From contig JAETTM010000031.1 in assembly GCA_021769135.1 (NCBI GenBank), forward strand, positions 1 to 51,309: 51,309 nt of DNA, written 5' to 3'. The stretch comes from Lachnospiraceae bacterium. Lineage in GTDB: Bacteria > Bacillota > Clostridia > Lachnospirales > Lachnospiraceae. This document shows, in pieces, positions 20,271 through 38,989 of the stretch; positions within the stretch are counted from its first letter, which is position 1, and the number at the start of each line of letters is the position of its first letter. The notes under the pieces were generated by a model. It saw only the letters and a program-made list of their open reading frames with translations. It was not told where the DNA came from and did no database searches. The position numbers and the translations under genes are program-made.

Positions 20271-20289
20271 AAGATGTTTATTGTCTGTA

Positions 20290-20925: not shown

Positions 20926-20926
20926 A

Positions 20927-21166: not shown

Positions 21167-21170
21167 GCCT

Positions 21171-21338
21171 GGAAATGAAGTGTCTATGTGGGTTTCACAA
21201 AAATATCATCTTTGAGTTCCCAATTTTTCTTTTTAAGCTATAGAAAGCTGTTTACTGAAAAATTTAAATTTTGAGGAGTTTTTCTGATTGAGAGGTCAAT
21301 TCGCAGGTCAATTTAAGAATGCCCTCAAGACGCATAAA
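21171..21338 (+). repeat. Diverged direct repeat, copy B
   Basis: Second copy of the 19463-19618 segment, starting five bases after the intron 3' end. Shared blocks are in the same order, with scattered substitutions and a 10-base insertion near AGGTCAATT. The two copies bracket the DUF4258/YgiT pair, the IS200 and the intron fragment. Confidence 0.75.
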
Positions 21339-21395
21339 TTTAGGAATTTTAGGGTATTGGGATGATTAAAACAGAAAATTTACAGAGGGTGGATT

Positions 21396-21745: not shown

Positions 21746-21774
21746 TTGTATTTCGGTCTAAAACTGTATATAAT
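21746..21774 (+). promoter_or_regulatory. Promoter-like sequence, similar to the tRNA-Gln promoter
   Basis: TTGTAT (21746-21751), 17 bases, TATAAT (21769-21774). The spacer resembles that of the tRNA promoter (CGGTnTAAAACnGT in both), so the two may share descent. It would serve the decayed antitoxin gene at 21813. Confidence 0.5.
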
Positions 21775-21812
21775 GAAAGAAAAGCAGGATAATGAAGAGA
21801 TATGGAAATGGC

Positions 21813-22199
21813 ATGGAGAATAATAAAATTCAAGTAGAGATGATTATGAGTGTAGCTGAATTGACCGTAAAACTGGAAGCGTTATAGCCGGAAGATTATA
21901 ATATGATTGTAAAGTTGGTTGACCGTTTATCAGATAAGCCATCTAATATTTTACCATATTTGCAAGTAATAAATGATGGCGATGATTTTGCTGATAAGGC
22001 AAATTTTTCAATAGTTATCGGATTATTTGCTGCTAAAATGATAACCTTGGAAAAGGCAGCAGAGCTTGCTGGAAAAAGTATATGGAATTTTATTGATACT
22101 TTAAAAGAACATCAGATTCCCTGGGGAGAATATACGGAAGAGGATATGCAGATGGATGAACTTGCATTAAAGAAACTTGCAGGGGGCATGTATGTCTAA
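21813..22199 (+). pseudogene. UPF0175-like antitoxin with in-frame stop
   Basis: From ATG 21813 the frame reads MENNKIQVEMIMSVAELTVK, LEAL, then TAG (21885-21887), and goes on as PEDYNMIVKLVDRLSDKPSN. The C-terminal half, IGLFAAKMITLEKAAELAGK, FIDTLKEHQIPWGEYTEED, is the UPF0175 pattern. A downstream ATG at 21903 could still give a 98-residue product. The stop overlaps the start of a decayed PIN gene, the same layout as the intact pair at 23319-24097. Confidence 0.7.
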
Positions 22200-22330
22200 A
22201 GTGAGAGTGATTTGTAATACCAGCCTGATTATTGGACTTTTAACCATCAACCGTTTGTAATTGCTTGAGAAGCTGTTTGATGAGATTTATATTCTGGAAT
22301 CGGTATAAAGGGAATTTTGGTAAAATCGGA
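22192..22330 (+). pseudogene. DUF3368/PIN-like toxin remnant
   Basis: ATG 22192 overlaps the antitoxin stop by the usual few bases. It reads MSKVRVICNTSLIIGLLTIN, RL, stop, LLEKLFDEIYILESV, stop, REFW, stop: the start of a PIN-like toxin (compare IISDTTPILSLLKAGRLELL in the intact copy) with three in-frame stops and the rest deleted. The remaining bases to 22393 show no recognisable gene. Confidence 0.65.
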
Positions 22331-22393
22331 TATGATAGAAACGGAAGAATAGAAGGTTATGAAGTGAAGGTTGATGAAGCGGAGATATAAATA

Positions 22394-22750
22394 ATGGATA
22401 ATGGTTTGGCTTTAAATTATAAAGTTATAGAAAATGTTAAGCAAGAAGCGACGGAAATGGTAAAAACGCTTATGGGCACTGATTTGGTAGAGGTTATTTT
22501 ATACGGTTCCTGTGCGAGAGGCGACTATACGGACGATTCAGATATAGATATTGCGCTTCTTGTGAAATGTAATCGTTTGGAAGCAAAAAAATATGATGAT
22601 GTCTTGGCAGATATTTCTACGGAATTGGCTATGAAATATTTTGCGGTTGTCAATTTTGTGAGTTTGCCATATGGCGAATATGTTGAGAAAAAAAAGTGGT
22701 ATGGATATTTCAAGAATATTGATATGGAAGGGGAGGTGTTATATGGATAG
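22394..22750 (+). CDS. MNT-type nucleotidyltransferase antitoxin
   Basis: 118 residues with the minimal nucleotidyltransferase signature GSCARGDYTDDSDIDIALLV (GS x10 DxD). In MNT/HEPN pairs this protein adds AMP to the HEPN toxin near its active site and silences it. CGGAG precedes the ATG. The last bases overlap the HEPN start by eight. The HEPN partner directly follows, which makes the assignment firm at the system level. Confidence 0.88.
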   Translation: MDNGLALNYKVIENVKQEATEMVKTLMGTDLVEVILYGSCARGDYTDDSDIDIALLVKCNRLEAKKYDDVLADISTELAMKYFAVVNFVSLPYGEYVEKKKWYGYFKNIDMEGEVLYG

Positions 22751-23165
22751 GGAATACTATATGGAACTTGCCAAGGTTCGGCTGGAAAGGGCAAAGGAAC
22801 TATTGGAGGAATCACAAGAACTTTTAGCCATAAAATCTTATAAATCGGCAAATAACAGTGCATTTTACGCCATGGAAAAAAGCATTAAGGCATTGCTGGC
22901 AATCCAGGAAATAGAAGTGGCCACACATAATGGAGGATTAAAGCAGTTTAACTATATTTTTATCCATAAGGGTGATGGGAGTTTTACCGTAGAGGATTAT
23001 CAGAAGATAGCGAAAGCAGAGCAGATAAGAAATGTATCTGACTATGACGATTTTTATATAGCAGGCAGAGAAGAAACGGAACAGCAGATTGCTAATGCAA
23101 AATATTTTGTAGATAAAGTAGAGAAATATTTAAAGAATGAAGCAGCAAAAGAGGCGGAGCGATAG
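22743..23165 (+). CDS. HEPN-domain toxin of the MNT/HEPN pair
   Basis: 140 residues from ATG 22743, which has GGGGAGG seven bases upstream; the longer upstream frame overlaps MNT and is discarded. The helical HEPN fold is visible: YYMELAKVRLERAKELLEE, SYKSANNSAFYAMEKSIKAL, and the motif IRNVSDYDDFY, an R-x4-Y variant of the R-x4-6-H RNase motif that MNT-linked HEPN proteins use. Probably an RNase toxin acting on tRNA or mRNA. Its first 80 bases are duplicated at 24164-24224. Confidence 0.85.
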   Translation: MDREYYMELAKVRLERAKELLEESQELLAIKSYKSANNSAFYAMEKSIKALLAIQEIEVATHNGGLKQFNYIFIHKGDGSFTVEDYQKIAKAEQIRNVSDYDDFYIAGREETEQQIANAKYFVDKVEKYLKNEAAKEAER

Positions 23166-23294
23166 ATGAGCAGTCTACTGGCCAGAGCACAGGCTGATAT
23201 AGATATAGCGAAGCTTTTGCCTAGTTCGGAAGGCAGGTACTGTATGGAGTATAAATATAGAGATAAAAAAGGAACATGTCATGAGAAAATATGA
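23166..23294 (+). CDS. Short ORF, possible HEPN-type remnant
   Basis: A 42-codon frame starting one base after the HEPN stop: MSSLLARAQADIDIAKLL then PSSEGRYCMEYKYRDKK. The first 18 residues resemble the starts of HEPN proteins (RAxxDIxIAKLL), so it may be the relic of another such gene. No ribosome site of its own; could be translated by reinitiation. Confidence 0.3.
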   Translation: MSSLLARAQADIDIAKLLPSSEGRYCMEYKYRDKKGTCHEKI

Positions 23295-23318
23295 AAATCT
23301 TGGGGAAGGAGCGGTTTT

Positions 23319-23594
23319 ATGAATATGATAAGCATGGAAATAAAGATTCCGGCATCTGCAAAGGAGTATATATTGGATGATACAACAGAAGAAATGCGAA
23401 AAGCCCTTTTGCTATATCCAAGTATTGCTAACAACACAATATCGCATGGGAGGGCAGCAGAACTGCTGGGGATGAATAAGATGAATCTCATTGAGATGTA
23501 TAGCAGACTGGGAATCCCTTATTTGGATATGACAGACGAAGAATTTGAGGAGGAAATCCAGACCGTAAAAAGGCTGGCTGCTATAGAGGCATGA
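23319..23594 (+). CDS. UPF0175 family antitoxin
   Basis: 91 residues with AAGGAG before ATG 23319. The UPF0175 pattern is clear: IPASAKEYILDDTTEEMRKA, LLLYPSIANNTISHGRAAEL, LGMNKMNLIEMYSRLGIPYL. These form a ribbon or winged-helix-like protein usually coupled to a PIN-like DUF3368 toxin. The stop TGA overlaps the toxin's ATG (ATGATAA-type junction). Intact counterpart of the decayed gene at 21813. Confidence 0.85.
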   Translation: MNMISMEIKIPASAKEYILDDTTEEMRKALLLYPSIANNTISHGRAAELLGMNKMNLIEMYSRLGIPYLDMTDEEFEEEIQTVKRLAAIEA

Positions 23595-24097
23595 TAATAA
23601 TATCAGATACAACTCCGATTTTATCATTGTTAAAGGCTGGAAGACTGGAATTGCTTGAAATGTTGTACCATACAGTTGTGGTGCCAGAAGCGGTTTACAA
23701 TGAGCTGACAAGCAATGACGATTATGAAGAAGAACGAAGGGAAATTGAGAAGTGTACGTTCCTTTCGGTTGAGAAAGTACGTAATATAGAATCGGTGCGT
23801 ATTTTAAGAGTTGTTACAGGATTGGATGCAGGAGAAAGCGAATCACTGGTTTTATATGGAGAGATGGGAGCAGAGCTGCTTCTTATAGATGAGCATAAGG
23901 GTAGAAATGTGGCTAAGAAGATGGCTGTTGAATATGTAGGAACAGTAGGTATCTTAATGCTGGCTTTTGATGAGGGAATTATATCGGCTGAAGAGATTCG
24001 GGAAACATTGGAAATTTTGCTCAGATGTGATATTAGGTTGAGCCGGAAACTCTGCAATAAGGTTTTAAGATATGTTGGTTTGGAGGACTATTTCTAA
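23591..24097 (+). CDS. DUF3368 (PIN-like) toxin
   Basis: 168 residues starting MIIISDTTPILSLLKAGRLE with the first acidic PIN residue (Asp6), then VVPEAVYNEL (Glu), and GLDAGESESLVLYGEMGAEL plus LLIDEHKGRNVAKKMAV carrying the later acidic residues. C-terminal helix RLSRKLCNKVLRYVGL. DUF3368 proteins resemble PIN ribonucleases and travel with UPF0175 proteins. RNase activity is inferred. Translation is coupled to the antitoxin by the overlap. Confidence 0.83.
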   Translation: MIIISDTTPILSLLKAGRLELLEMLYHTVVVPEAVYNELTSNDDYEEERREIEKCTFLSVEKVRNIESVRILRVVTGLDAGESESLVLYGEMGAELLLIDEHKGRNVAKKMAVEYVGTVGILMLAFDEGIISAEEIRETLEILLRCDIRLSRKLCNKVLRYVGLEDYF

Positions 24098-24116
24098 TTT
24101 GTATCAGGAAAATAAG

Positions 24117-24224
24117 GGATATTTTAAGAATGTTGATATTGACGGGGAGGTGTTATATGGATAGGGAATACTATATGGAACTTGCCAAGGTTCGGCTGGA
24201 AAGGGCAACGGAACTATTGGAGGG
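24117..24224 (+). repeat. Duplicated fragment of the MNT 3' end and HEPN 5' end
   Basis: About 105 bp nearly identical to 22703-22805, including the GGGGAGGTGTTATATGG ribosome site and the first 20 or so HEPN codons. The frame then runs out after GCAACGGAACTATTGG. With the original it forms direct repeats bracketing the rest of HEPN and the UPF0175/PIN pair. Confidence 0.85.
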
Positions 24225-24241
24225 AGCTTCCCTTAAAAGAT

Positions 24242-24295
24242 ATATCCCGCAGGATGCCGTGCTATCCAGCAAGCATCCTGTGGGATATGTTTTTT
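24242..24295 (+). terminator. Strong terminator at the end of the accessory island
   Basis: ATATCCCGCAGGATGC (24242-24257) pairs with GCATCCTGTGGGATAT (24273-24288), one G-U, then GTTTTTT. On the minus strand it is followed by TCTTTT and may also end the LacI-family gene. Confidence 0.85.
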
Positions 24296-24345
24296 AGGAT
24301 ATAGACTGGATTGTCATTAAATAAATCCAGTTTCCGGCAGCCCTT

Positions 24346-25428
24346 TTATGAATGCACAGATTGCAACGGCATATTTTCTGGGGCAGGCCCTACCGAATTC
24401 CTTTCGATTATTTTTGTAGAAAATTTAATGTTTTTGGTGAAACCGGCATCAATGCTTTCAGGGTGCTTCATCCTGTTAAGCAGTATCCGGATAGCTTCTT
24501 TGCCAAGTTCATCCCTGGGATAGGAAATGGTGGTTAAAGGGGGAGTGACATATTGGGAAAACTCTATATTGTCGCAACCTACAACGGATATATCCGAAGG
24601 AATGGAATACCCCAGTTCCTGAATGGCCCGCATAGCGCCTATAGCCATTCGGTCATTGGCTCCAAAGACGGCGGTAATGGAATGGCTGCCCTGAAGGATT
24701 TTCTTTGTTTCGGTGTATGAAGTTTCCATATCCCAATTTATATTTCTAATCAGTGCGGGGGAAATATCAATATGATTGGCAAGATGGGCCATGACATATC
24801 CCCGCAGGCGTTCTTCATAATCAAACAAGTGGAACGAACCTGATGCGAATCCGGAAGTATCGCCAAGATACAATATTTGTTTATGGCCCATCCCAATTAA
24901 CTGGTTTACAAGCTGATAGGATGAGTGTTCAAAATTTATTGAAATCCTGTCGTTTTTGAATTGCTCAAATCCTTTGAAGATATTTACGGCAGGTATTTTG
25001 TTTTCCGCAAAATATTGGTTGATATGAAAGGGAATATCTCCAATTAATATAACGCCGTCGCATATAAACGGTTCCAATTTTTCATGTAGACTATCAATAT
25101 CAATTTCATTTACGGAAAGAGCAAAACTTAAGTTGCACTTATGGGATATCAATTCGGACTCGATTCCCCTTATGATGTCCGAAAAATAAGAATCCTCAAA
25201 AGAGTATTCGTCCTTAGTCAATACATAGCCGATATTTTTTGTTTTGGAATTAACAGCGCTTTTTGTATTCTTTTTTTTAATTTGATATCCAAGCTCTTTT
25301 ACACTTTGCCATATTTTTTCTTCCGTTTCTTTTGAAACATTCATAGTTTTGTCATGGTTTATGACTCTGGATACGGTAGTCATAGATACGCCGGCTTTTT
25401 CTGCCACATCAATCAATTTGGTTGCCAT
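24346..25428 (-). CDS. LacI-family transcriptional regulator of the glycan locus
   Basis: 360 residues. The N-terminal HTH is textbook: KLIDVAEKAGVSMTTVSRVI, then NHDKTMNVSKETEEKIWQSV. The periplasmic-binding-like sensor follows (GVILIGDIPFHINQYF; AVFGANDRMAIGAMRAIQEL; DISVVGCDNIEFSQYVTPPL), ending with the usual TTISYPRDELGKEAIRILLNR. AAAGGA precedes the ATG. It diverges from the GH29-importer-GH28 operon across a 329-base AT-rich gap containing a palindrome in the operon promoter. Likely a repressor released by an imported sugar. Confidence 0.93.
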   Translation of the reverse strand: MATKLIDVAEKAGVSMTTVSRVINHDKTMNVSKETEEKIWQSVKELGYQIKKKNTKSAVNSKTKNIGYVLTKDEYSFEDSYFSDIIRGIESELISHKCNLSFALSVNEIDIDSLHEKLEPFICDGVILIGDIPFHINQYFAENKIPAVNIFKGFEQFKNDRISINFEHSSYQLVNQLIGMGHKQILYLGDTSGFASGSFHLFDYEERLRGYVMAHLANHIDISPALIRNINWDMETSYTETKKILQGSHSITAVFGANDRMAIGAMRAIQELGYSIPSDISVVGCDNIEFSQYVTPPLTTISYPRDELGKEAIRILLNRMKHPESIDAGFTKNIKFSTKIIERNSVGPAPENMPLQSVHS

Positions 25429-25463
25429 AATATTATCCTTTGCAGATAAAATAATTTTTTACT

Positions 25464-25474
25464 TTACTAAAATT
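25464..25474. promoter_or_regulatory. Second candidate LacI-family half operator
   Basis: TTTACTAAAAT, the reverse complement of ATTTTAGTAAA in the main palindrome at 25631. It lies 35 bases before the regulator's own ATG, fitting autoregulation. Further GTAAAATA motifs occur at about 25570 and 25608. Confidence 0.4.
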
Positions 25475-25625
25475 ATATTATCATGATAAACAAATAAATG
25501 CAATAAAAAAGTGATTAACAGTATAGAATTCTACAATTTGAGCAGTATTTGCTCATTTTGTAAAATAATACTAGTAAAATAGTAAGATAAATAGAAATAA
25601 ATTTCAGTAAAATATAAAAAATATA

Positions 25626-25654
25626 TTGACTATTTTAGTAAAATATTGTATTTT
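25626..25654 (+). promoter_or_regulatory. Promoter of the GH29 operon with embedded palindromic operator
   Basis: TTGACT (25626-25631), 17 bases, TATTTT (25649-25654). The perfect palindrome TATTTTAGTAAAATA occupies 25631-25645, entirely within the spacer. A repressor bound there would exclude polymerase. The remaining 100 bases to the GH29 start hold no second promoter that I can see, only a good AGGAGG site. Confidence 0.65.
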
Positions 25655-25757
25655 GATATCAAGGGGATTGTTAACGGAAATGTTCGGCTGTTAATTTATG
25701 TCTAATTGACGAAAAACTTCGGGCGAAACCTAATTTTAGTGAATCAGGAGGTATAAG

Positions 25758-27179
25758 ATGGAAGAAAATAAGAAACTGTATGAAGCAAATTGGGAATCAT
25801 TGAAACAGCATAAGCCTGCGCAATGGTTTAAAGACGCAAAGTTTGGAATCTTCGTTCATTGGGGCGTGTATTCCGTGCCCGCATGGGCTCCTACTGCTGG
25901 ATGCGAATTGGACCAGAATACGAAGCTGCACGGTACGCATCCATACGCGGAGATTTATCTTTACTGTATGAGGTTCAGAAACAGCCCTTTCTGGAAACAT
26001 CATGTGGAAACATATGGAAGCAATTTTCATTACGATGATTTTATCCCTATGTTTCGGGCGGAAAATTATAATCCGGATGAATGGGCAAAGCTTTTTAAAG
26101 AAGCCGGGGCAAAATATTCTGTTATGGTGACAAAACATAGCGATGATTTTGCCATGTGGCCTACGGCATATTCCGATAGGAATGCTGTTCAGATGGGCCC
26201 CCATAAAGATTTAGTAAAAGGCTTTGCGGATGCAATGAGGTCCAATGACCTTAAGCTGGGATTATATTTTACGTGGTGCTTTAACGTATATTATTCCCAT
26301 TATCCCAGTTATCCCTATACGGATTATATCCATGCGCAGGCAAAGGAATTGATAGATACTTATCATCCGGATTTATTCTGGCCGGATGCTGAATATGCAG
26401 TACCCCGTCAGAGAGTTCCGGCTTCCCTGTGGAGAAGTGAAGAGATGATAGCATATTTTTATAATCAAGCAAAAAATCCGGAGGAAGTGCTTGTAAACGA
26501 CAGATGGGGAAAGGTGGATAATGCAAGGCTGCTGGGGGACTATATGACCCCTGAATATGCCAGCATGAAAGGAATACCTGAATTTTACTGGGAGACGACG
26601 AGGGGTATCGGGCGTTCATTCGGCTATAATCAGATGGAAGGGGAAAATGATTATACCAGCGTAAAAGAGCTTGTCCATATTTTAGTAGATAATGTTAGTA
26701 AAAATGGAAATCTTTTGCTGAACGTAGGCCCTAAAGCGGACGGAACGATTCCGGAAATCCAGAAACAGCGGTTGTTGGGCATTGGCAAATGGCTGAGAAT
26801 AAACGGAGAAGCCATTTACGGAACGCGCCACTGGGTGCACTACGGAACGGAAACGGAGGATGGGAATGTCATAAGGTATACGAAGAAAGGAAATACTGTA
26901 TATGCCATGGCTCTGGAAAGGCCGGGGAAGGAATTGAAGATTCCGTACTTAATGGCGAAAGAAGGGACGCGAATTCGGCTTCTTGGCAGGGAGCAGGAAC
27001 TGGAATGGCATCAGGACGGGAGGGAATTGGTCATTCATATTCCTGAAAACATAGATGATTCGGAAGCATATGCATTTGCCATTTCACCGGAACCATATTG
27101 TTTAATAGAAGAAAAAAATAAACCTAAAATTTTGACTGTGGATGACCTTCAGGTAATGGGATTGGATAAGCATTGGTAA
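25758..27179 (+). CDS. Alpha-L-fucosidase, GH29
   Basis: 473 residues, cytoplasmic (no signal peptide). The N-terminal catalytic barrel shows WFKDAKFGIFVHWGVYSVPA, EWAKLFKEAGAKYSVMVTKH, SDDFAMW and, for the nucleophile, DLFWPDAEY with Asp210. WETTRGIGRSFGYN and NGNLLLNVGPKADGTIP are standard GH29 blocks. A small beta-rich C-terminal domain follows. GH29 enzymes release alpha-L-fucose with retention. AGGAGG lies before the ATG. First gene of the operon; the SBP gene starts 17 bases after its stop. Linkage preference cannot be told from sequence. Confidence 0.93.
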   Translation: MEENKKLYEANWESLKQHKPAQWFKDAKFGIFVHWGVYSVPAWAPTAGCELDQNTKLHGTHPYAEIYLYCMRFRNSPFWKHHVETYGSNFHYDDFIPMFRAENYNPDEWAKLFKEAGAKYSVMVTKHSDDFAMWPTAYSDRNAVQMGPHKDLVKGFADAMRSNDLKLGLYFTWCFNVYYSHYPSYPYTDYIHAQAKELIDTYHPDLFWPDAEYAVPRQRVPASLWRSEEMIAYFYNQAKNPEEVLVNDRWGKVDNARLLGDYMTPEYASMKGIPEFYWETTRGIGRSFGYNQMEGENDYTSVKELVHILVDNVSKNGNLLLNVGPKADGTIPEIQKQRLLGIGKWLRINGEAIYGTRHWVHYGTETEDGNVIRYTKKGNTVYAMALERPGKELKIPYLMAKEGTRIRLLGREQELEWHQDGRELVIHIPENIDDSEAYAFAISPEPYCLIEEKNKPKILTVDDLQVMGLDKHW

Positions 27180-27196
27180 ATAGGAGGAAATATTGT

Positions 27197-28624
27197 ATGA
27201 GAAAGAGCAGATGGTTAGCATTAATTATGTGCATTGTATTGATGGCAGCAATGCTATATGGTTGCGGAGCAGGAGAAGCAGCGGAGCAAAAGAACAGCGG
27301 TTCGGAAGCGGGCGGTGAAAACAGTGCGGAAGATGACACGAAAAATAACGGGGAAGATGGCGCACAGGACGGCGGGGAAAGCAATCAGGATAATAGCGGC
27401 AGCGAAATGGTTACATTAAAATTTATGGGATGGCAGCCTGAACTTCAGATTATGAACGAGAAAATGCTTCCAATTATTAAGGAAAAATATCCCAATATTA
27501 ATGTTGAAGTAGAAATACTTGAATGGTTTGACTATTGGGATAAACTGACGATTAGTTCTGCAGCAGGGGATTCGGCGGATATTGTAGCCATGGATGTGGA
27601 CCATATTCCCACATTCCAGGAGTATTATATGGGGCTTGATGAATTGGCGGCAGATACCTATGGAAATGAATGGGAAAGCCAGTATAATGACGGGGTTCTG
27701 GATGGCTTGCGGAACGTATCGGAGGATGGCTCATTAAAAATGATGCCTTCGGATGTAACAGGGCTATGGTATATTTTTTATAACAAGTCCATTTGCGATA
27801 AGCTGGGAGTTGCGGTGCCCAGCGGAGAATATGAGGATCTTGCCCGGTTTGTAAAAGAAATTAAAGCGAAAGATGCAAATGTTTTACCGGTGGCTTTTGC
27901 GGCAAAGGAAGATGTAAATCTCGGATATTTTTACCTTTGGCTTGCTTCAAATATAGATAATGGAATAGTGGAAAGGGCTGTAAAGGGAGAAGCCTCTTTT
28001 ATGGATGAAGCGTTTGTGCAGGCGTTTGCCCAATTGAAAGATATGTATGAAAAAGGTATTCTTGCAGAAGAAAATTTTGGCCTGGATGCCTATCCGGGCT
28101 GTGATGAAGCTTTTAAAAACGGGAAGGCCGCAGCTTATCTGACAGGAGAATGGTATTTAGGAAACTATCTGATGGGAACATCTTTGGCGGGAACCCCAAC
28201 CGAGAATGATGAATTTGGCATTGTTACCATGCAGAATGTAGAGGGAGGCACCACATGCATGCAGAAATATGCTTCTTTCGGATATTCGGTCAGCAATGAG
28301 TGCGAGCATAAAGAAGAAGCTATGAAAGTAATAGAAGAGTGGACGCAGGGCGAAGCAGCAGGGGAATGGATGAATTATATGGCATGTGTTCCTGCGGCCA
28401 AAGCTGTAACAGTTGATATGGAAAATATGAAATCGGATGAAGCAAAAGCGACATACCAAAAAGCATTTGACGATTTGAATGTTAATCCGTCCGTGCTTCG
28501 TTCCACGTTGAATGTAGAGTTGGATAATAAAATTGGCGAGGCTGTTGTATCGGTCGTTCGTTCAGGATTAGATGTGGAGGATGCGCTGCAGCAGATTCAG
28601 CAGACGGCGGATTCGGTAAGATAA
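27197..28624 (+). CDS. ABC sugar transporter substrate-binding lipoprotein
   Basis: 475 residues from ATG 27197 with TAGGAGG upstream. Signal peptide with lipobox LYGC (Cys about residue 23), then a 45-residue Gly/Asn/Glu-rich spacer, then a family 1 extracellular solute-binding fold: VTLKFMGWQPELQIMNEKML, GDSADIVAMDVDHIPTFQEY, GLWYIFYNKSICDKLG, GKAAAYLTGEWYLGNYL. It would capture an oligosaccharide at the outer face for the two permeases downstream. No ATPase gene is in the locus, so a shared MsmX-type ATPase elsewhere is implied. Confidence 0.92.
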   Translation: MRKSRWLALIMCIVLMAAMLYGCGAGEAAEQKNSGSEAGGENSAEDDTKNNGEDGAQDGGESNQDNSGSEMVTLKFMGWQPELQIMNEKMLPIIKEKYPNINVEVEILEWFDYWDKLTISSAAGDSADIVAMDVDHIPTFQEYYMGLDELAADTYGNEWESQYNDGVLDGLRNVSEDGSLKMMPSDVTGLWYIFYNKSICDKLGVAVPSGEYEDLARFVKEIKAKDANVLPVAFAAKEDVNLGYFYLWLASNIDNGIVERAVKGEASFMDEAFVQAFAQLKDMYEKGILAEENFGLDAYPGCDEAFKNGKAAAYLTGEWYLGNYLMGTSLAGTPTENDEFGIVTMQNVEGGTTCMQKYASFGYSVSNECEHKEEAMKVIEEWTQGEAAGEWMNYMACVPAAKAVTVDMENMKSDEAKATYQKAFDDLNVNPSVLRSTLNVELDNKIGEAVVSVVRSGLDVEDALQQIQQTADSVR

Positions 28625-28632
28625 GTGAAAAG

Positions 28633-28656
28633 AAAGGGGCTTTATAGCCCCTTTTT
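28633..28656 (+). terminator. Intercistronic hairpin after the binding-protein gene
   Basis: AAAGGGGCT/AGCCCCTTT with a TTAT loop and five Ts, between the SBP stop and the first permease. Probably a partial terminator giving more binding protein than permease. Confidence 0.7.
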
Positions 28657-28708
28657 GAATAAAGGCGTTATACAAATAGAACAATGGAAATAAGTAAGGG
28701 AGGAAGAA

Positions 28709-29611
28709 ATGAAAAAAAGAATTACTCCATATTTATATATATTGCCGGCAGTATTATTGGTAGGTATATTTTTGATTTACCCTATAATATTCAATTTGTT
28801 GTCAAGTTTTACAAAATGGAAAGGATTTAATTTCGGCAAAGCAGAGTTTGTCGGAATAAAAAATTATATTACTTTAATAAAAGACCCTGTATTTTTACGA
28901 GATTTGCGCAACTGCCTGCTTTTTATGGTATTGACCATTTTTTTTCAGATGAGCATAGGGTTGATATTGACTGTGTTTTTAAACTTAAAATTATTTGGGT
29001 ACAGATTGATGGAAACCATCTATTTTTTCCCGGTTGTCCTTTCGTCGGTGGTGGTAGGATATACCTTTTTGCAAATTTTTGAACCTAATTTTGGCACTTT
29101 GAATACCTTTTTGCAGTCAGTAGGGTTGGAGGGCTGGAAAAGAATGTGGATAGGTGATGCCAAGTATGCCCTTATAGCCATATTGATTGCCAATATTTAT
29201 CAGTGGTCAGGTATGGGAATTATATATTACAGGGCCGGGCTGGCCAATATTTCAAAAGAATTGTATGATGCTGCAAAAATCGACGGCGCGGGGTTTTGGC
29301 AGACTTTTTTTAGAATCACTATCCCGTTATTGAAAAACACCCATGTGACTATTCTGCTTCTGGGGACAATTGGCTGTTTGAAATTTTTTGATCTGGCATA
29401 TATCATGACCAGCGGAGGGCCTGCTAATTCTACGGAATTTCCGCTGCTCTACCTGTATAGGAAATTCATGAGAGAGTCTAACAGCGGGCTTGCGAGCGCA
29501 GCGGCTATTGTAATTATTTTACTGGCGACTATTTTGTCTATAGGGATATTAAAAGTAACAGGTAATGACAGAGAGGCGGGGGAAAATAAATATGACAAAA
29601 AGAAGAAATAG
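28709..29611 (+). CDS. ABC sugar permease, first subunit (MalF/UgpA type)
   Basis: 300 residues, six predicted helices, starting KKRITPYLYILPAVLLVGIF. The EAA-like loop that meets the ATPase is ELYDAAKIDGAGFWQTFFRI followed by TIPLL. GGAGG precedes the ATG. It overlaps the second permease start by 20 bases. Together they form the membrane channel for the lipoprotein upstream. Family members import oligosaccharides, often from pectin or hemicellulose when next to YesMN-type systems. Confidence 0.92.
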   Translation: MKKRITPYLYILPAVLLVGIFLIYPIIFNLLSSFTKWKGFNFGKAEFVGIKNYITLIKDPVFLRDLRNCLLFMVLTIFFQMSIGLILTVFLNLKLFGYRLMETIYFFPVVLSSVVVGYTFLQIFEPNFGTLNTFLQSVGLEGWKRMWIGDAKYALIAILIANIYQWSGMGIIYYRAGLANISKELYDAAKIDGAGFWQTFFRITIPLLKNTHVTILLLGTIGCLKFFDLAYIMTSGGPANSTEFPLLYLYRKFMRESNSGLASAAAIVIILLATILSIGILKVTGNDREAGENKYDKKKK

Positions 29612-30389
29612 GATTATACAGTTATGCCTTACTATTGGCGCTGTAATTTGGATTATACCTGTAATTGCGGCAATACGGGTATCTTTTAAAAATGGGGGAT
29701 TTAAAAATTATACTGATGTATTTGATACGAAAATCAATAATATTTTAATTCTGCCTAAAATGATTTCCAACAGTTTTGCTGTGACGGGGGGGACCATTTT
29801 CATTGTAATGGTGTCGGCCACCCTTGCTGCATATGCTTTTTCAAAATTAAAATTTAAAGGAAGAAAAATATTTTTCGTACTGCTGCTATCTTGTTATGCG
29901 ATTCCTATGCTGTGTACGCTGATTCCTAATTCCCTGCTTATTAAAGCTCTTGGTTTGAGAGGATCATATCTGTCCATGATACTTCTTTTGGCTACGGCAA
30001 ATATTCCATTGGCGATTCTTATATTTAAGGGGAATTTTGATTCCATTCCATCATCATATTTGGAAGCTGCCAGAATGGACGGATGTACTGATTTGAAAGG
30101 ATTTTTGTATGTTATACTCCCGATGTCTAAGCCGGCAATCGTTAATGTGTTGGTGGTTCTATTTATTCAGGTATGGAATGATTTTCAGATTCCGCTGGTG
30201 TTTTCCACGAATCCTGAGAAATATACCTTGACACTGGCGCCTACATTTTTCGGTTTGACTCAAAACAGACTGGATCTTCCCCATTTGTATGCGTCTATTG
30301 TTATTATTGCTATTCCTGTTGTTGTTTTTTATATACTGATGCAGGATAAAATAGTGGAAGGAATGAGTATTGGAGGGCTAAAAGAGTGA
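29592..30389 (+). CDS. ABC sugar permease, second subunit (MalG/UgpE type)
   Basis: I set the start at ATG 29592 (MTKRRNRIIQLCLTIGAVIW), with GGGGGAA upstream; 265 residues, six helices. The EAA loop is SYLEAARMDGCTDLKGFLYV then ILPMSKPA. The C-terminal end DKIVEGMSIGGLKE is typical of carbohydrate permeases of this class. Its TGA overlaps the GTG start of the first GH28 gene, so import and degradation are translationally coupled. Confidence 0.92.
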   Translation: MTKRRNRIIQLCLTIGAVIWIIPVIAAIRVSFKNGGFKNYTDVFDTKINNILILPKMISNSFAVTGGTIFIVMVSATLAAYAFSKLKFKGRKIFFVLLLSCYAIPMLCTLIPNSLLIKALGLRGSYLSMILLLATANIPLAILIFKGNFDSIPSSYLEAARMDGCTDLKGFLYVILPMSKPAIVNVLVVLFIQVWNDFQIPLVFSTNPEKYTLTLAPTFFGLTQNRLDLPHLYASIVIIAIPVVVFYILMQDKIVEGMSIGGLKE

Positions 30390-31747
30390 AAAATAATGTG
30401 GAAGATATACAGTTATATCCCTGCAAGGAGGTGAACGATGACACGGAACGGATTCAGAGAGCGGTTAAAACAGCCTGTTACAGGGGATGTAGAGTGATAT
30501 TCCATCAAGGGAAATATCGTATTGGAACGGTATACCTTTATAGCGGAACACAATTAGTGCTTTTGAAAGGATGCAGAATTATCGGGAGCGAGAAACTGGA
30601 GAAATATACAGTAAAGGAGTATTGCCATCAATCGAAAAAGAACTATTGGCAAAGTATTTTTTTTGCCAAGCAGGCGAATGGGATATCGGTGATAGGAGAA
30701 GGGCAGATTGAAGGGCAGGGGGAATGTTTCCCGTATGGTTTGGAAGCGTTCAGTGTAGATGACAAGGAAAAATGTCCAGTAAAAGAATATAAAATCAGGC
30801 CAAGTTTATTTTATTTTAAAAATTGCAGCCATATTGAAATGAAAGGCATTATTCTTCGGGATGCGGCTCAGTTTGCGGTATTGGTTGAAGAGTGTGAGGA
30901 TATCAATATCAATGGGGTGGAGATTTACAACCGTAAAAATTATAATACGGATGGTTTGCATTTTTCAGGAAATAAAAGGGTACATATTGATGGCTGCAGA
31001 CTGGATTGCGGGGATGATGCTATTGTTTTGAACCGGCATGCCGAAGATATAAAAATTAACCGCTGTGAGATATCATCCCGTTGGGCGGGAGTGCGCATTG
31101 GCCCTTTTTCGGACGGGAGATTTGAAAATATAGAAATTAGCAATTGCAGAATTCATCACACATATGGCTGCGGCATAAAAATCCAGATGGGGCAAGGGGG
31201 TATTATCCGCAATGTGTGGATACATCATATCCATATGGAAAAGGTAACAGGGCCTGTCCATGTCAGCCTTTGCCATTTCCCGGGGTGGGAAAAACATGGT
31301 GAGAGAAAATCCCCGGGAAAGATTGAAGAGATTGTTTTGGAAGATATCATGGCTGAAGTAGTAAGCAGCTTCAAACCTGGGAGCCGGGAAGTACCTATAG
31401 AGGAAGGGGAACATTATTCCTGTATTCACATACGGGGAACAGGGGGGCAGAAAATACATAAAATACGATGGGCAAACTGTAGCATCATATATGAAGGCGG
31501 GTATTTGGAAGCAGCTTATAAACCGCATTTAACAACAGAAATTGATGACAGATATCCTGAATATTTTCTTTATGGAATAATGCCATGTTATGGTATGTAT
31601 GCATCATATATAGAAGAACTGGAAATGGAGAATATCCAGATATCTTTAAAAAAGGAGGATGTTCGCGTGCCATTCATTATGGATCATGTAGATATGTCAA
31701 AATGGAATCATGTTTGTGTGAAGGGAGTGCAGAATGAAACAGTATGA
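30386..31747 (+). CDS. GH28-family right-handed beta-helix glycosidase, first copy
   Basis: 453 residues, GTG start at 30386 overlapping the permease stop, GGAGGG just upstream. A parallel beta-helix with GH28 motifs: YNTDGLHFSGNKRVHIDGC (NTD), LDCGDDAIVL (the Asp pair), SSRWAGVRIG and GCGIKIQ in place of the usual RIK. GH28 includes polygalacturonases, rhamnogalacturonases and xylogalacturonases. The His of the usual GHG motif is not evident, so activity or specificity may differ. No signal peptide, hence intracellular action on imported oligosaccharides. Confidence 0.85.
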   Translation: MKNNVEDIQLYPCKEVNDDTERIQRAVKTACYRGCRVIFHQGKYRIGTVYLYSGTQLVLLKGCRIIGSEKLEKYTVKEYCHQSKKNYWQSIFFAKQANGISVIGEGQIEGQGECFPYGLEAFSVDDKEKCPVKEYKIRPSLFYFKNCSHIEMKGIILRDAAQFAVLVEECEDININGVEIYNRKNYNTDGLHFSGNKRVHIDGCRLDCGDDAIVLNRHAEDIKINRCEISSRWAGVRIGPFSDGRFENIEISNCRIHHTYGCGIKIQMGQGGIIRNVWIHHIHMEKVTGPVHVSLCHFPGWEKHGERKSPGKIEEIVLEDIMAEVVSSFKPGSREVPIEEGEHYSCIHIRGTGGQKIHKIRWANCSIIYEGGYLEAAYKPHLTTEIDDRYPEYFLYGIMPCYGMYASYIEELEMENIQISLKKEDVRVPFIMDHVDMSKWNHVCVKGVQNETV

Positions 31748-33017
31748 AACAAAAGAAGTCATAAACGTATGTGCCCTGGGGGCGGTAGGGGATGGGAAAA
31801 AAGATGATACAATCCCTATGCAAAAGGCGATAGATATGGCGGCAGAAAGAAAGTGTACCTTGTATGTTCCAGAAGGAATCTATCTTATTGGAACTATATA
31901 TCTAAAAAGCAATTTGAAATTATTTTTAGATGAACAGGCGGTTTTGCTGGGAAGCCCGGATATCAGCCAATATGGAGAAAATACACATTTTAACCGATAC
32001 CGCAATGAACAATATATGGATAAATGTTTAATCTATGCGGAAGACTGCAAAAATATTAGTCTTTTTGGAGGAACTTATAATGGAAACGGTGAGGCCTTTT
32101 ATCGGGAAGGAAAACCGGATACGGTTCACCCTATGTTATTCAGGTTCCTGCGGACAAAAAATATACGAATGGAAAATATAAATATCCGTATGCCGGCAGG
32201 ATGGAGCACGGCTTTTATTGAATGTGAAAATATACATATTAGGGAAATGGATATTGTCAGCCGGCATTTTAACGGAGATGGGCTTGATTTTGACAGCTGC
32301 CGAAATGTTTTTGTATCAGAATGCCGGATGGATACGAGCGATGACTGCCTCTGTATCCAAAATTCGGTGGCTGACAGAAAAAGTTATCATATTATGGTGC
32401 GGAACTGCGTAATGAGCAGCCGGTGGGCAGCTGTCCGTATAGGGCTTCTTAACAGCGGGGATATAGAAGATGTGATGATTTCTGAATGCATCTTTCATGA
32501 TGTAGTTTGCAGCGGATTTAAGATACAGGCAACGGAAACGGGGGAGATACGCAATATTATGATTAACAATATTTTGATGAAAAATGTTGCAAGGCCACTG
32601 TTTATTACATCAAATTACTATAGGATGGGCGTGCTTCCGGATGGCCAAAAAGATGGTGAAAAGAGTATAGATGGCATTTTTGTAAGTAATGTAAGGATAG
32701 AAAACGGGGAAAGAAAAGCCGGAGAAAAGATGGATGGTATTTTCTTGCTTGGTATTCCTGAAAGGAAAATAAAGCATATATGTTTACATGGCATATCCTA
32801 TCATTTGCCCGGAGGGAATAATTGTGAAAGAACCGGGGAAGTGCCAGAGTTAACAAATTATAGGCCGGAATATTATGTGATTAACACGAGCCCTGCCGCC
32901 GCCTTGTATGCCAGACATATAGAATGGCTGGAGTTAAAAGATTTCAGTTATAGGCTGGACAAAGAGGATGTAAGGGAAGAAGTCATTTTGGACGATGTTT
33001 CCACATTATTCAGATGA
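31734..33017 (+). CDS. GH28-family glycosidase, second copy
   Basis: 427 residues, starting 14 bases before the end of the first GH28 gene, preceded by GGAG. It begins INVCALGAVGDGKKDDTIPM, the usual GH28 start. Catalytic region: HFNGDGLDFDSCRNV (NGDG), MDTSDDCLCIQ (Asp pair), SSRWAAVRIG, CSGFKIQA. Clearly related to the first copy but diverged throughout, so an old duplication or two specificities. No signal peptide. It ends one base from the convergent response-regulator gene, with no terminator between. Confidence 0.87.
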   Translation: MKQYETKEVINVCALGAVGDGKKDDTIPMQKAIDMAAERKCTLYVPEGIYLIGTIYLKSNLKLFLDEQAVLLGSPDISQYGENTHFNRYRNEQYMDKCLIYAEDCKNISLFGGTYNGNGEAFYREGKPDTVHPMLFRFLRTKNIRMENINIRMPAGWSTAFIECENIHIREMDIVSRHFNGDGLDFDSCRNVFVSECRMDTSDDCLCIQNSVADRKSYHIMVRNCVMSSRWAAVRIGLLNSGDIEDVMISECIFHDVVCSGFKIQATETGEIRNIMINNILMKNVARPLFITSNYYRMGVLPDGQKDGEKSIDGIFVSNVRIENGERKAGEKMDGIFLLGIPERKIKHICLHGISYHLPGGNNCERTGEVPELTNYRPEYYVINTSPAAALYARHIEWLELKDFSYRLDKEDVREEVILDDVSTLFR

Positions 33018-33018
33018 A

Positions 33019-34650
33019 TTACCTCCCCTCCCCCAAAAATTCCTGCCGGTATTTGCTGGGCTGCATGCCGGTGAGGCGGATAAAGCTGCGGCTGAAATAG
33101 CTTTGGTTGGGAATGCCTACCTGTTCGGCAATTTCACCGATAGGAAGGGATGTGGTAGCGAGCAGCAGCATGGCCCGTTTCAGCCTGGCCTGCACTAAAA
33201 AATCGGAAAAGTTCATATGGACTTCCTTTTTAAAAACCTGGGATAAATAGGTGGGATTACAATATATTTCCCTGGCGATTAGCTGCAGCGTAATTTCCTC
33301 ATTCAAATGCTTATGGATATATTGAATTGCCTGTTTGACGATGGGATGGCATGGATATAGCCCCCGTTCAATCAGCTGCGTAAGCGAGGATTCGTATTCA
33401 TGGTAATTTTCCAGCAGGGCAGACAGCTTTTTGTGTTTGAAAAGGCTTTTCCTGATAGATTCGTTTTGGGCAGATGATTCTTGGAATTTGGGAAATGGAC
33501 TGCTGGAAAAAATATCATGGGATGCCTCTACGCTTGCCGCTTTTTCTTCTAAAATGGAGCAGCTTAAAGCAAGCAGCTCTTTCACATCATCAGGAAAGTA
33601 CATATGGAGCGGGAGCGATGCGCAGACTTCGTGAATGATGTCAGCCGCGGACGATAACTGGCCGCACTCCACAAACTGGATATACTTGGTGATAATAGGC
33701 ATAACGGAAAGCGGATTCCCTGGGAAGGCGGAAGCATCGCAAAGATAGATACCAGGCTTTTCATAAAACAAGTATGTTTGACTGTATTTCCGTATGGCTT
33801 CGTTATTTTGGAAAACATTTTCAAATCCGGTAAAGACAGGGCTGTAAAAAATACTATAACGGCCCTGATGGATAGCCGGGAGTTTTTTGCCAAATGATTG
33901 TATTTCCTGGCAAAGGCTGGAAGCCGCCTGGCCGGAAGCTGCCAAATTCCCGATAAAAATATAGTGGTTGGCGCTGGAGGACAGCCAATAACCGGATGGG
34001 ATTAGTTGTGGATGAAAGCGGGGCATTTCAGAAATGCCGGATTCAGGGGATTTTTCTGCAGGCTTATCATTTTCCATATAGACATGGACTAAAAAGAGCT
34101 TGTCTTCCCGTAAATCCATGGATAGCCGAGAGATTTCTTCTTTGATTTCCCGGGGATATTGAGGGGAAATCAGCAGATTCCAGCAAAGGTTACTCTGCAA
34201 TTCGACAAGATGTCTGGCAAACTGCTGTTTATACTGTTCGGATTCCAGTTGCAATTTCCTTTCTGAAAAAATATTTTCCGCAGCTTTTAAAGCTAACATT
34301 AATAAATGCTCGCATTCCAGTTCGGATTTCAGTAAATATTCGCTTGCTCCATAGGAAATTGCCTTTTGGGCATATTTGAAGTCATCGTAGGCGGATAATA
34401 TAATAATTTTGATTTTAGGATAACGTGCAATCAATTCTTTTGTCAATTCCAGGCCATCCATAACGGGCATGCGGATATCTGTGATTACCAGGTCAGGGGT
34501 TTGCTCTTCGCATAAATGGAGTGCTTTTTCTCCGTTGGAAGTGGCGCCGATAACGGTAAACCCATATTTTTCCCAATCAATGGTCAAACGCAGTCCTTCC
34601 CGGATTATTTGTTCGTCATCTACAATTAAAACTTTAATTTGTTGATTCAT
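33019..34650 (-). CDS. YesN-type response regulator with AraC DNA-binding domain
   Basis: 543 residues from ATG 34650 (MNQQIKVLIVDDEQIIREGL), with GAGG upstream. The receiver domain has the DD pair in VDDE, phospho-acceptor Asp in DLVITDIRMPVMDG, and the Lys in LLKSELE. A long middle region of unknown fold follows. The C-terminal two-helix AraC domain is clear: NEEITLQLIAREIYCNPTYL, SQVFKKEVHMNFSDFL, LPIGEIAEQVGIPNQSYFSR, GMQPSKYRQEF. It overlaps the kinase gene by 17 bases. Partners of this type control sugar importers and pectinases; the adjacent importer is the likely target. Confidence 0.92.
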   Translation of the reverse strand: MNQQIKVLIVDDEQIIREGLRLTIDWEKYGFTVIGATSNGEKALHLCEEQTPDLVITDIRMPVMDGLELTKELIARYPKIKIIILSAYDDFKYAQKAISYGASEYLLKSELECEHLLMLALKAAENIFSERKLQLESEQYKQQFARHLVELQSNLCWNLLISPQYPREIKEEISRLSMDLREDKLFLVHVYMENDKPAEKSPESGISEMPRFHPQLIPSGYWLSSSANHYIFIGNLAASGQAASSLCQEIQSFGKKLPAIHQGRYSIFYSPVFTGFENVFQNNEAIRKYSQTYLFYEKPGIYLCDASAFPGNPLSVMPIITKYIQFVECGQLSSAADIIHEVCASLPLHMYFPDDVKELLALSCSILEEKAASVEASHDIFSSSPFPKFQESSAQNESIRKSLFKHKKLSALLENYHEYESSLTQLIERGLYPCHPIVKQAIQYIHKHLNEEITLQLIAREIYCNPTYLSQVFKKEVHMNFSDFLVQARLKRAMLLLATTSLPIGEIAEQVGIPNQSYFSRSFIRLTGMQPSKYRQEFLGEGR

Positions 34651-35629
34651 AAGCGGTATCCTCATCTTTCCCGGTTAATAAAGGAAGTATCAGTACAATA
34701 GTAGTTCCTTGGCAGGGGCTGCTTTGGAACTGGACAGAATATGGGCTGCCATAATTGAGCCGGATTCGCTCCATAATATTTTTGATGCCAATTCCATTTA
34801 AGCCCCTTGTTTTCTGGGGCATCGTCAGGATTTCCTGTAATTTTTCCGGCGTTATGCCGCATCCGTTGTCCTGGATGGTAACATTTAAAATACGGTTAGG
34901 ATAATCGGCGGAAAAGACAACGGATATTTTTGTATTATGGCTGATTTCCTCGTATCCATGCCGCAGGCTGTTTTCAATCAGCGGTTGGATAAGGAAACGC
35001 ATAATATGGTATCTTTTCAGCGGCTCCGGAAGCGTGACCTCAAATTGAAATTCGGAATAACGGCGTTGTTGGATATAAATATAACTTTTCAAAATATTCA
35101 GTTCTTCTTCCAGCGGTATCGTCTTGTCCGAACGGGAAATTGTATTTTTCAGCACATCCACAAGGGCGGACAAGGAGGATATGGCCTGTTCGCTTCGGCC
35201 CAGGCGCAGCAGCATTTTAATGGAGCCGATGGTGTTATACATAAAATGAGGGTTAATCTGCGCCTGCAGGGCTTCGATTTCCAAATCCCTTTTTTGCTTT
35301 TCTTTTAACAGCATTTGCTGCTGGAGGACATGCAATTGCTGCATCATATCATAAAATTCTATGCCTAATCTGCTTATTTCATTATTGGCCTGGATCTGAG
35401 GGGGCAAAAGGTTTGTTTCACCGGCTTTTACTTTTTGGATATTCCTATCCAGCTGCCGGATAGGGTAAATAATACTTCGGTTTAGATAAATGCATACGCC
35501 GATGAGCCCGGCAGCCAAAAAACCAAGCCCCAGAACGATAATAAGGGACCAATGGTTCAAGTCGCTTAATATCGTCCGAATGGGAAGAAGATGGATAAGC
35601 GTCCAGCCGACAGCACCGATGGGAATGCG
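34634..35629 (-). pseudogene. YesM-type sensor histidine kinase, N-terminal ectodomain deleted
   Basis: The retained part holds the last membrane helix (HWSLIIVLGLGFLAAGLIGV), a HAMP domain, the His-kinase domain with phospho-acceptor His in INPHFMYNTIGSIKMLL, and the ATPase with IQDNGCGI and RGLNGIGIKNI. Upstream the frame stays open through RIPIGAVGWTLIHLLPIRTI, which is the end of an extracellular dCache sensor, and then meets a stop at 35642-35644. Full-length YesM proteins are about 570-600 residues; about 250-300 are lost, including the first helix. Only a TTG at 35558 could start a short form. The truncation coincides with that of the sulfatase. Confidence 0.8.
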
Positions 35630-36860
35630 TTTTACCGATTTTTATGCGGCTTCGCCGGTATGTTCCCCTTCGAGGGGAGGGATGCTGACGGGATGTTATC
35701 CGCCCAGAATCGGTTTTGGAACTTTCGATGGGGAATGGGTGCTGTTTCCGGGGCAGGGCGTTGGGCTGAACCCGGATGAAGTGACGATGGCGGATGTCTT
35801 ACGCGCAGCGGGATACCGGACAAAAATCATAGGGAAATGGCATTGCGGAGATCAGGAAGAGTTTCTGCCTCTGAATCATGGATTTGACGAATATTATGGG
35901 CTGCCTTACAGCAATGACATGGGGCGGCAGGTGACCAGGGAAAATAATCCTCCGCTGCCGTTAATGGACGGGAAAGAAGTAATAGAAGAACAGCCCGACC
36001 AGCGCTCCCTGACGGAAAGATATGTGGAGCAGGCCGTAAAGTTCATCCGGGCCAATGGGGAAGAGCCTTTCTTTTTGTATTTTGCCCATATGCATGTGCA
36101 TCTGCCCCTTTATACATCGGAAGAATTTGTGAAGCAATCCGGGAACGGGGATTATGGCGCCTGTGTGGCCTGCATTGATTGGGCGGCAAACTGCGTATTG
36201 GAGGAATTGCGCCGCAGGAATTTGGAAAAGGATACGCTGTTTCTTTTTACTTCCGATAATGGAGGCAGGGGAGACCATGGCGGCAGCAACAGGCCGTTAA
36301 AGGGGAAGAAAGGAACGACATGGGAAGGGGGGCAAAGGGTTCCGTGCATTGCTTATTGGCCGGGGCATATTCCGGCGCACAGCATTTGCGGCGGGGTAGC
36401 ATCGAACATAGATTTTATGCCGACCATTATGTCATTGTGCGGTATCCGTCAGCCGCTGCCTAATCCGATAGATGGAGTGGATTTGAGCGGCGCGCTGCTT
36501 CGCCGGGAAGAATCGCCCAGAAAGGAATTCTTTTATTATATAAAGGAAAATCTGGAGGCAGTGCGGGCGGGGGGTTGGAAGCTGCATGTAGCCAAGGACG
36601 GGCAGCCGGTACAATTGCTATATCATTTGTCGGAAGATGAAGGGGAGGAAAATAATCTGTATGGCGAATACCCGGAAATCGTGGAAAGGCTTTCGGAAAG
36701 GATAAAGAAATGCAGGGAAGATTTGGGGGATGCGGTAACCGGTACGAAAGGAGAAAATGTGCGTCCAATCGGAAGGGTAGAAAATCCCCGGCCGCTGACG
36801 GAATACTGCGAGGGGCATCCTTATATGGTGGCAATGTATGACAGGGACGAAATCGGCTGA
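35622..36860 (+). pseudogene. Sulfatase (S1 family), 5' truncated
   Basis: Family similarity begins abruptly at GMRFTDFYAASPVCSPSRGG (ATG 35625) and runs to the end: formylglycine motif CSPSR, GKWHCGDQEEFLPLNHGFDE, FFLYFAHMHVHLPLY, FTSDNGGRGDHGGSNRPLKG, KGTTWEGGQRVPCIAYWPG. Missing are the first 45-55 residues with the metal-binding Asp-Asp (FADDLG-type) motif. An open frame extends 45 codons further upstream but is the antisense of the kinase, not sulfatase. Without the metal site the enzyme should be inactive. The GH31 gene follows after 41 bases. Confidence 0.82.
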
Positions 36861-36901
36861 TGGAAAATGACGGCTATGGAAGATAAAGGAGAGGATGATA
36901 T

Positions 36902-38989
36902 ATGGCAAATGAAGTGGCAATACAGGGAAAAATAATTAATGACAAAAGGCCTGACAGTGAAAAAATTTGTTTTACACAAGAAGGAAACCGGCTGGTTTAC
37001 CGCTATGACGGGGAGGAATTGTGGGTAGAGCCCTGGGGAGAAAACAGCCTGCGTGTCCGGGGTTCCAAAATGGCAAAAATGCCCTTGGAAGACTGGGCTT
37101 TAAGCGAAAAAGTGAAGGAATGTGTGCCGGAAATACATATTTATGAGGACGGAAGGGCCGAAATCCGTAACGGAAAGCTGGCCGCCCGTTTTTCGGCAAC
37201 AGGAAAGCTTTCCTTTTATAATCAGGACGGGAAGCTGCTGTTGAATGAGTATGTAAGAAACCGGCGCGATATTAAGGTGGATTATTGTTCGACATTGGAA
37301 GTGGATGCCAGGGAATTTTGTCCAATCCTGGGCGGGGATTATCGGATTTTTATGCGTTTCGAGTCATTGGACGAGAAAGAGCATCTGTTCGGAATGGGGC
37401 AGTACCAGCAGCCGTATGTGGACTTGAAAGGAACGGATTTGGAGCTGGCGCACCGGAATTCCCAGGCAAGCGTTCCGTTCGTATTGTCCTCTTTGGGCTA
37501 TGGATTTCTTTGGAATAATCCGGCAGTGGGGCGGGTAACCTTTGGAAAAAATATAACCACATGGGAGGCTGTTTCCACAAAGCTATTGGATTATTGGGTA
37601 ACCGCAGGGGATACCCCGGCTGAGATTGAGGAAGCCTATGCCAATGTGGCCGGGAAAGTGCCCATGATGCCGGAGTATGGGATGGGCTTCTGGCAATGTA
37701 AACTGCGTTACCAGACCCAGGATGAACTGTTGGAGGTGGCAAGGGGCTATAAAAAAAGAGGGCTGCCCATTTCCGTTATTGTGGTTGACTTTTTCCACTG
37801 GCCTATGCAGGGGGAATGGAAATTCGACCCCGTCTATTGGCCGGATCCGGATGCTATGATTAAGGAACTGCAGCAAATGGGCATTGAACTGATGGTATCA
37901 ATTTGGCCTACGGTGGATTATCGGAGCGAAAATTTTGAAGAGATGAAACAGAAGGGATATCTAATCCGTACGGACCGGGGATTCCGGATTAGCATGGATT
38001 ATCAGGGGAATACCATCCATTATGATGCCACCAATCCGAAAGCAAGGGAATATGTCTGGGAAAAGGCGAAGAAAAATTATTATGAAAAGGGCATTCGGAT
38101 TTTTTGGCTGGATGAGGCGGAACCGGAATATACGGTGTATGATTTTGATAATTACCGGTATTATTTGGGGCCTAATGTGCAAATCGGGAATATCTATCCG
38201 GTCATGTACGCCAAAACTTTCTTCGACGGGATGAAAGGGGAAGGACAGGAAAATATTGTAAACCTGCTGCGGTGCGCATGGGCAGGGAGCCAGAAATACG
38301 GCGCGTTGGTATGGAGCGGCGATATCCATTCCGACTTTAAGACTTTACGAAACCAATATGCGGCGGGTTTAAATATGGGAATCGCGGGGATACCATGGTG
38401 GACAACGGATATCGGAGGATTTCATGGAGGATGGGTGGATGATTTGAAATTCCATGAATTGCTGATAAGATGGTTTGAATACGGAACATTTTGTCCGGTT
38501 ATGAGGCTGCACGGAGACAGGGAACCCCATAAACCCCAATACGGTACAACGGGAGGGGCTGCGTGTCTGTCCGGGGCGGATAATGAAGTATGGTCTTACG
38601 GGCCGGAGGTGGAGAAAATTTGTACAAAGTATTTGCTTATAAGGGAACGTATGAAGCCATATATTGCCGGATTAATGAAGGAAGCCCATGGAAAAGGAAC
38701 GCCGGTTATGCGGACGCTGTTTTATGAATTCCCGGAGGATGAAATGTGCTGGAGCGATTTTGAAGAATACATGTTTGGGCCGGATATTCTTGTGGCACCG
38801 GTTATGTATGAGGGGATGAGGGAGAGGGAGGTTTATCTTCCTGATTTGCCGGGGGAAGAACAATGGACCAATGCCTGGACCGGAGAAAAATATCGGGGAG
38901 GGGAGAGGGTGAAAGTGCCAGCCCCTATAGATGAAATCCCGCTATTTATCAGGAATGGAGCGGCGCATACAAAATTTCTTGACTTTTGA
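36902..38989 (+). CDS. GH31 glycosidase, probable alpha-xylosidase
   Basis: 695 residues, cytoplasmic, with AAAGGAGAGG before ATG 36902. An N-terminal beta domain is followed by the barrel: GFWQCKLRYQTQDELLEVAR, VIVVDFFHWPMQGEWKFDP, the nucleophile region FWLDEAEPEY with Asp404, LLRCAWAGSQKYGALVWSGD (acid/base Asp) and WWTTDIGGF. The YicI-like FWQCKLRYQ and LDEAEPE patterns favour alpha-xylosidase over alpha-glucosidase, but this is not decisive. With GH29 and GH28 it would remove alpha-xylose or a similar side group from an imported oligosaccharide. Confidence 0.9.
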   Translation: MANEVAIQGKIINDKRPDSEKICFTQEGNRLVYRYDGEELWVEPWGENSLRVRGSKMAKMPLEDWALSEKVKECVPEIHIYEDGRAEIRNGKLAARFSATGKLSFYNQDGKLLLNEYVRNRRDIKVDYCSTLEVDAREFCPILGGDYRIFMRFESLDEKEHLFGMGQYQQPYVDLKGTDLELAHRNSQASVPFVLSSLGYGFLWNNPAVGRVTFGKNITTWEAVSTKLLDYWVTAGDTPAEIEEAYANVAGKVPMMPEYGMGFWQCKLRYQTQDELLEVARGYKKRGLPISVIVVDFFHWPMQGEWKFDPVYWPDPDAMIKELQQMGIELMVSIWPTVDYRSENFEEMKQKGYLIRTDRGFRISMDYQGNTIHYDATNPKAREYVWEKAKKNYYEKGIRIFWLDEAEPEYTVYDFDNYRYYLGPNVQIGNIYPVMYAKTFFDGMKGEGQENIVNLLRCAWAGSQKYGALVWSGDIHSDFKTLRNQYAAGLNMGIAGIPWWTTDIGGFHGGWVDDLKFHELLIRWFEYGTFCPVMRLHGDREPHKPQYGTTGGAACLSGADNEVWSYGPEVEKICTKYLLIRERMKPYIAGLMKEAHGKGTPVMRTLFYEFPEDEMCWSDFEEYMFGPDILVAPVMYEGMREREVYLPDLPGEEQWTNAWTGEKYRGGERVKVPAPIDEIPLFIRNGAAHTKFLDF

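Follow-up and report, generated by a model that had tools for sequence, protein, structure and literature searches.

The window, which is the whole 51,309 bp of one contig (C152) of a draft genome from a relative of gut Lachnospiraceae (4.43 Mb, 152 contigs, 97.28% complete), contains a gpPUL-like glycan-utilisation cassette that has very probably undergone a single, recent internal deletion of about 4.6 kb. As read from sequence comparison, the deletion joined short matching sequences, one in the kinase gene and one in the sulfatase gene, and it looks like ordinary gene decay. The cassette is now most likely dead, because its cognate importer and divergent region appear to be gone, together with the sensor and the N-terminal metal-binding segment of the sulfatase. 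The features of the locus are collected in Table 1.

Table 1 Features of the interrupted cassette and its neighbourhood in the window.
Feature	Position	Strand	Basis or remark
Separate ABC importer made up of a solute-binding protein and two permeases; the cognate importer of the deleted operon was a different one	27173..30389	+	Shares 23-27% identity with the importer encoded in the sister's operon
Intact ORF for a response regulator with an AraC-type DNA-binding domain, located downstream of the kinase remnant	33019..34665	-	Promoter region presumed lost
C-terminal remnant of a YesM-type histidine kinase; sensor part and start lost	34634..35629	-	Corresponds to residues 298-615 of the sister's 616-aa ORF; frame free of internal stops
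Junction of the deletion, with GGAATGCG as its ambiguous stretch	35622..35629		Overlap of the sister alignments; each base compared with the two break sites in the sister
Remnant of an S1-type sulfatase; residues 1-56 of the sister's ORF are missing, DDLGYGD among them; CSPSR kept	35622..36860	+	DNA and protein alignment, Pfam
Intact ORF for a GH31 glycosidase, located downstream of the sulfatase remnant	36902..38989	+	90% identical to sister; dN/dS 0.06

The undeleted locus occurs in a sister genome (G005, contig C74, whose proteins are those of QXWV01000016.1, Lachnospiraceae bacterium 526-35). It comprises a full kinase, a divergent intergenic region, a solute-binding protein (SBP), two permeases, a full sulfatase and GH31, in the same order and orientation as in the window. 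Two segments of the sister contig, on one strand and about 4.6 kb apart, align to window positions 33032-35628 (81%) and 35622-38965 (84%). With the junction placed after 35628, 4,633 bp of sister sequence are absent from the window. They encode kinase residues 1-297, the divergent intergenic region, the SBP (433 aa), the permeases (320 and 319 aa) and sulfatase residues 1-56; residue counts for sister proteins rest on mechanically set ORF starts. In Massiliimalia timonensis (locus L032), six genes follow the same order, from the regulator through the kinase, the SBP and both permeases to the sulfatase, with 37-79% identity depending on the part; the regulator is cut by the end of the locus, and GH31 was not found within it. 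Because this relative keeps the regulator-to-sulfatase order, the undeleted locus is, judged by synteny, the ancestral form.

An earlier, sequence-only reading of this DNA had proposed that one deletion truncated both the kinase and the sulfatase, and pointed to sister strains as the place to look for the missing segment. Colinearity with the sister and with M. timonensis supports that proposal well: the sister carries full-length versions of both proteins with the segment between them. The deletion thus stood, and its size grew from 'roughly 1 kb or more' to about 4.6 kb in sister coordinates.

By DNA search, 11 of 16 same-genus genomes gave some match to the window, and long matches were confined to its own genome (G000) and the sister. 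A plasmid search gave no match. Among 397 genomes drawn from the family, searched with the sister's sulfatase and kinase at E 1e-120 and 1e-80, the own genome was the sole match for each protein at these strict cut-offs. Since the queries were the sister's own proteins and the tally is one, the sister is absent from the draw, and this sample says little about the spread of the locus.

At the junction, the two DNA alignments to the sister have 7 nt in common, 35622-35628. GG at 35622-35623 and ATGC at 35625-35628 match both sister break sites; bases 35624 and 35629 match the sulfatase side only. Within the kinase, 35624 is the third, synonymous position of an Ile codon, and 35629 opens the codon that follows; the parent's kinase may also have matched at both positions. 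Base 35621 (G) matches neither break site (A on the kinase side, T on the sulfatase side) and is tentatively assigned to the kinase, because it is the synonymous third base of a Pro codon. Compared with each other, the sister break sites share ATGC as a contiguous block of 4 nt, and 6 of 7 positions are identical over 35622-35628. With the sister as proxy, the shared stretch at the break would be 4 to 8 nt long; up to 8 nt is possible in the true parent, where any microhomology beyond four contiguous bases is one that we infer. Nine shared bases, GGGAATGCG at 35621-35629, had been suggested before. This holds in part, for 4 to 8 nt, and is not supported at base 35621: nine would need a G there in the parent's sulfatase.

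Between random pairs of places in the sister sequence, at least 4 contiguous shared nucleotides occur with a frequency of 0.022, at least 7 with 0.0008 and at least 9 with 0.00006; the values are 0.0002 for 8 shared nucleotides and 0.0017 for 6 matches out of 7. No longer direct repeat pairs both break sites among the 20 listed of 22 sister families of at least 14 nt.

The kinase frame, on the minus strand, can be followed as far as 35629; four codons further upstream it runs into a stop. The remnant is 89% identical to the corresponding part of the sister's ORF, whose first 297 residues, where the N-terminal transmembrane segment and extracellular sensor region of a YesM-type kinase would lie, have no counterpart in the window. 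Frame and alignment thus agree with the earlier placement of the kinase boundary at about 35629. Pfam finds His_kinase (PF06580) and HATPase_c (PF02518) in the remnant; a hydrophobic stretch was read by eye as the last transmembrane segment. The dCache label given earlier to the sensor was left unconfirmed, as even the full-length kinase of the sister was given no sensor domain by Pfam. The response regulator, described before as intact but left without its input, is indeed whole as an ORF; it is a net 60 nt shorter than the sister's, within the gene and in frame. The divergent intergenic region, which presumably held the promoters of both operons, falls in the deleted segment; both promoters and sensor input may therefore be missing for the regulator and GH31. 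Promoter-like sites number 8 in window positions 34000-37000 (5.2 expected, sd 2.5) and 4 in the sister's intergenic region (2.1 in shuffled sequence, sd 1.5); these counts lie within the spread of shuffled sequence and are uninformative either way.

On the plus strand, the sulfatase aligns by DNA from 35622, corresponding to residue 57 of the sister's 468-aa ORF. Protein aligners extend the match to sister residue 50 or 46, into antisense kinase sequence. Within PF00884, the match of the remnant enters the profile at position 34. The genome has 14 matches above the cut-off, this one included, and the remaining 13 all start at positions 1-4; one more lies below cut-off. The remnant keeps CSPSR, GKWH, HMHVH, DNGG and KGTTWEGG, where C-x-P-S-R is taken to be the formylglycine motif of S1 sulfatases. 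DDLGYGD, at residue 30 in the sister and aligned there with DDLGYGD of arylsulfatase A, is absent; its N-terminal Asp-Asp pair presumably provides metal ligands. Both elements of the original description, a sulfatase recognisable from 35622 and lacking its metal-binding start, are borne out, as is the intact GH31 glycosidase.

Of 78 loci retrieved by similarity to the sulfatase, 76 have its N-terminal part, and the sister's own locus (L031) is one of them. In one of the two remaining loci (L096) the match starts at the contig edge; in the other (L097) it starts at sister residue 93, inside the contig (2107-3951), near a minus-strand ORF at 976-1893, and the gene is perhaps another truncated copy, judging by this alignment. 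In a Clostridia MAG (E13_bin199, L094:5785-7057), the sulfatase appears split over two frames, with about 180 bp missing relative to the window and a 7-nt overlap of the aligned pieces; an independent second deletion may explain this, as may an error of assembly.

Relative to the sister, dN/dS is 0.07 for the kinase remnant, 0.15 for the regulator and 0.08 for the sulfatase remnant, with GH31 as in Table 1, at dS of 0.7-0.9. Internal stops are absent from all four. Changes were polarised with the M. timonensis locus as outgroup for the kinase, the regulator (N-terminal 178 columns) and the sulfatase; GH31 had no outgroup. These three genes have 97 amino-acid differences, of which 31 were assignable to a branch (14 to the window's and 17 to the sister's); the other 66 agree with neither and are uninformative. 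Depending on the dN/dS assumed, the upper 95% bound on neutral time is 6-14% of the window branch. The deletion would thus be young, or specific to the strain or the assembly, because the remaining genes carry neither stops nor an excess of amino-acid change and longer neutrality would give more changes.

The lost segment was not found in the window's own assembly, either by DNA search or by protein searches with the SBP and the kinase N-terminus. Beyond the window's own flanks, DNA matches of 65-67% extend up to about 520 bases on contig C130, and shorter ones reach 91%. The best SBP match in the genome is a 38% paralogue on the same contig, where 82-90% would be expected of the true SBP by analogy with the neighbouring genes. 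The sensor part of the kinase has one match, of 31% over 65 aa. The assembly being 97.28% complete in 152 contigs, failure to find the segment is not proof of its loss. On C130, a paralogous cassette (L137, 25000-33000) has an SBP at 36-38%, permeases at 49-52% and a distant sulfatase at 26%.

The importer formerly regarded as the intact partner of the cluster turned out to be a distant paralogue (Table 1): the cognate SBP and both permeases are deleted. The block to which it belongs (23234-33018) borders directly on the response regulator and also holds a LacI regulator, a fucosidase and two GH28 genes; by DNA search, the block has one weak 69-base match in the sister. At 19346-24097, a tRNA gene is followed by DUF4258, HEPN and DUF3368 proteins, with short 90-95% identical pieces common to the sister; this may be the edge of a genomic island. 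A THF riboswitch is found at 1989-2093 (Rfam RF01831, 90.5 bits).

That an assembler or a chimeric read skipped 4.6 kb still present in the organism is unlikely, but it is the alternative to be taken most seriously. The kinase and sulfatase remnants show no decay, and sequence would not tell a very recent deletion from an artefact of assembly or library; the assembly is a 152-contig draft, and the junction is read from its assembled sequence. However, the join preserves the sister's order and orientation, and a random chimera is unlikely to unite two ends of one operon. Assembly overlaps are usually far longer than the 4-8 nt at this junction, and the searches by DNA, SBP and kinase N-terminus did not turn up the lost segment on other contigs.

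It is hardly credible that the short forms are natural, functional proteins, with TTG 35560 as the start of a sensorless kinase and ATG 35490 or ATG 35625 as that of a sulfatase. Open frames exist for both, and the kinase remnant retains its catalytic core domains; but the near-universal presence of the sulfatase N-terminus among the fetched loci, the missing DDLGYGD and the antisense kinase origin of the upstream part of the window ORF all speak against it. We also regard it as very improbable that a membrane-anchored, sensorless kinase, expressed from a leftover start, provides an always-on input to the intact response regulator, in which case the deletion would rewire the neighbouring glycan cluster rather than kill the cassette.

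A genuine deletion, the reading we prefer, would have started from a Firmicutes-type glycan-utilisation cassette, in which the kinase-regulator pair diverges from importer, sulfatase and GH31. The 4-8 nt match could then have allowed the removal of about 4.6 kb, by RecA-independent slippage or by end joining, and the promoters were probably lost with it. For annotation, the consequence is that automatic pipelines might report a sensor kinase and a sulfatase at this locus, although both have very probably lost their function, and might link the cluster with the wrong importer. As a case of a glycan cassette broken in one step, the locus is clean and can be roughly dated.

In the report on Roseburia and E. 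rectale, gpPULs combine an ABC importer and glycosidases with a kinase and an AraC-type regulator; they vary among related strains, one including a mucin desulphatase and one a frameshift (PMC5320581). The gene kinds are the same here, but the cassette is broken by an internal deletion and intact in the sister. The linkage of importer, glycosidase and regulator in one locus is present in the sister; the window lacks the cognate importer and has another one nearby. Deinococcus recA isolates are described as undergoing RecA-independent deletions at 4-11 bp repeats (PMC8149714). In both cases a short match would lie where a large deletion has its break; ours is a natural single case, with the parent represented by a sister proxy. 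Compared with S1-type sulfatases of solved structure (arylsulfatase A, 1auk, and others), the window's protein keeps CSPSR and the downstream motifs and lacks the N-terminal DDLGYGD segment.
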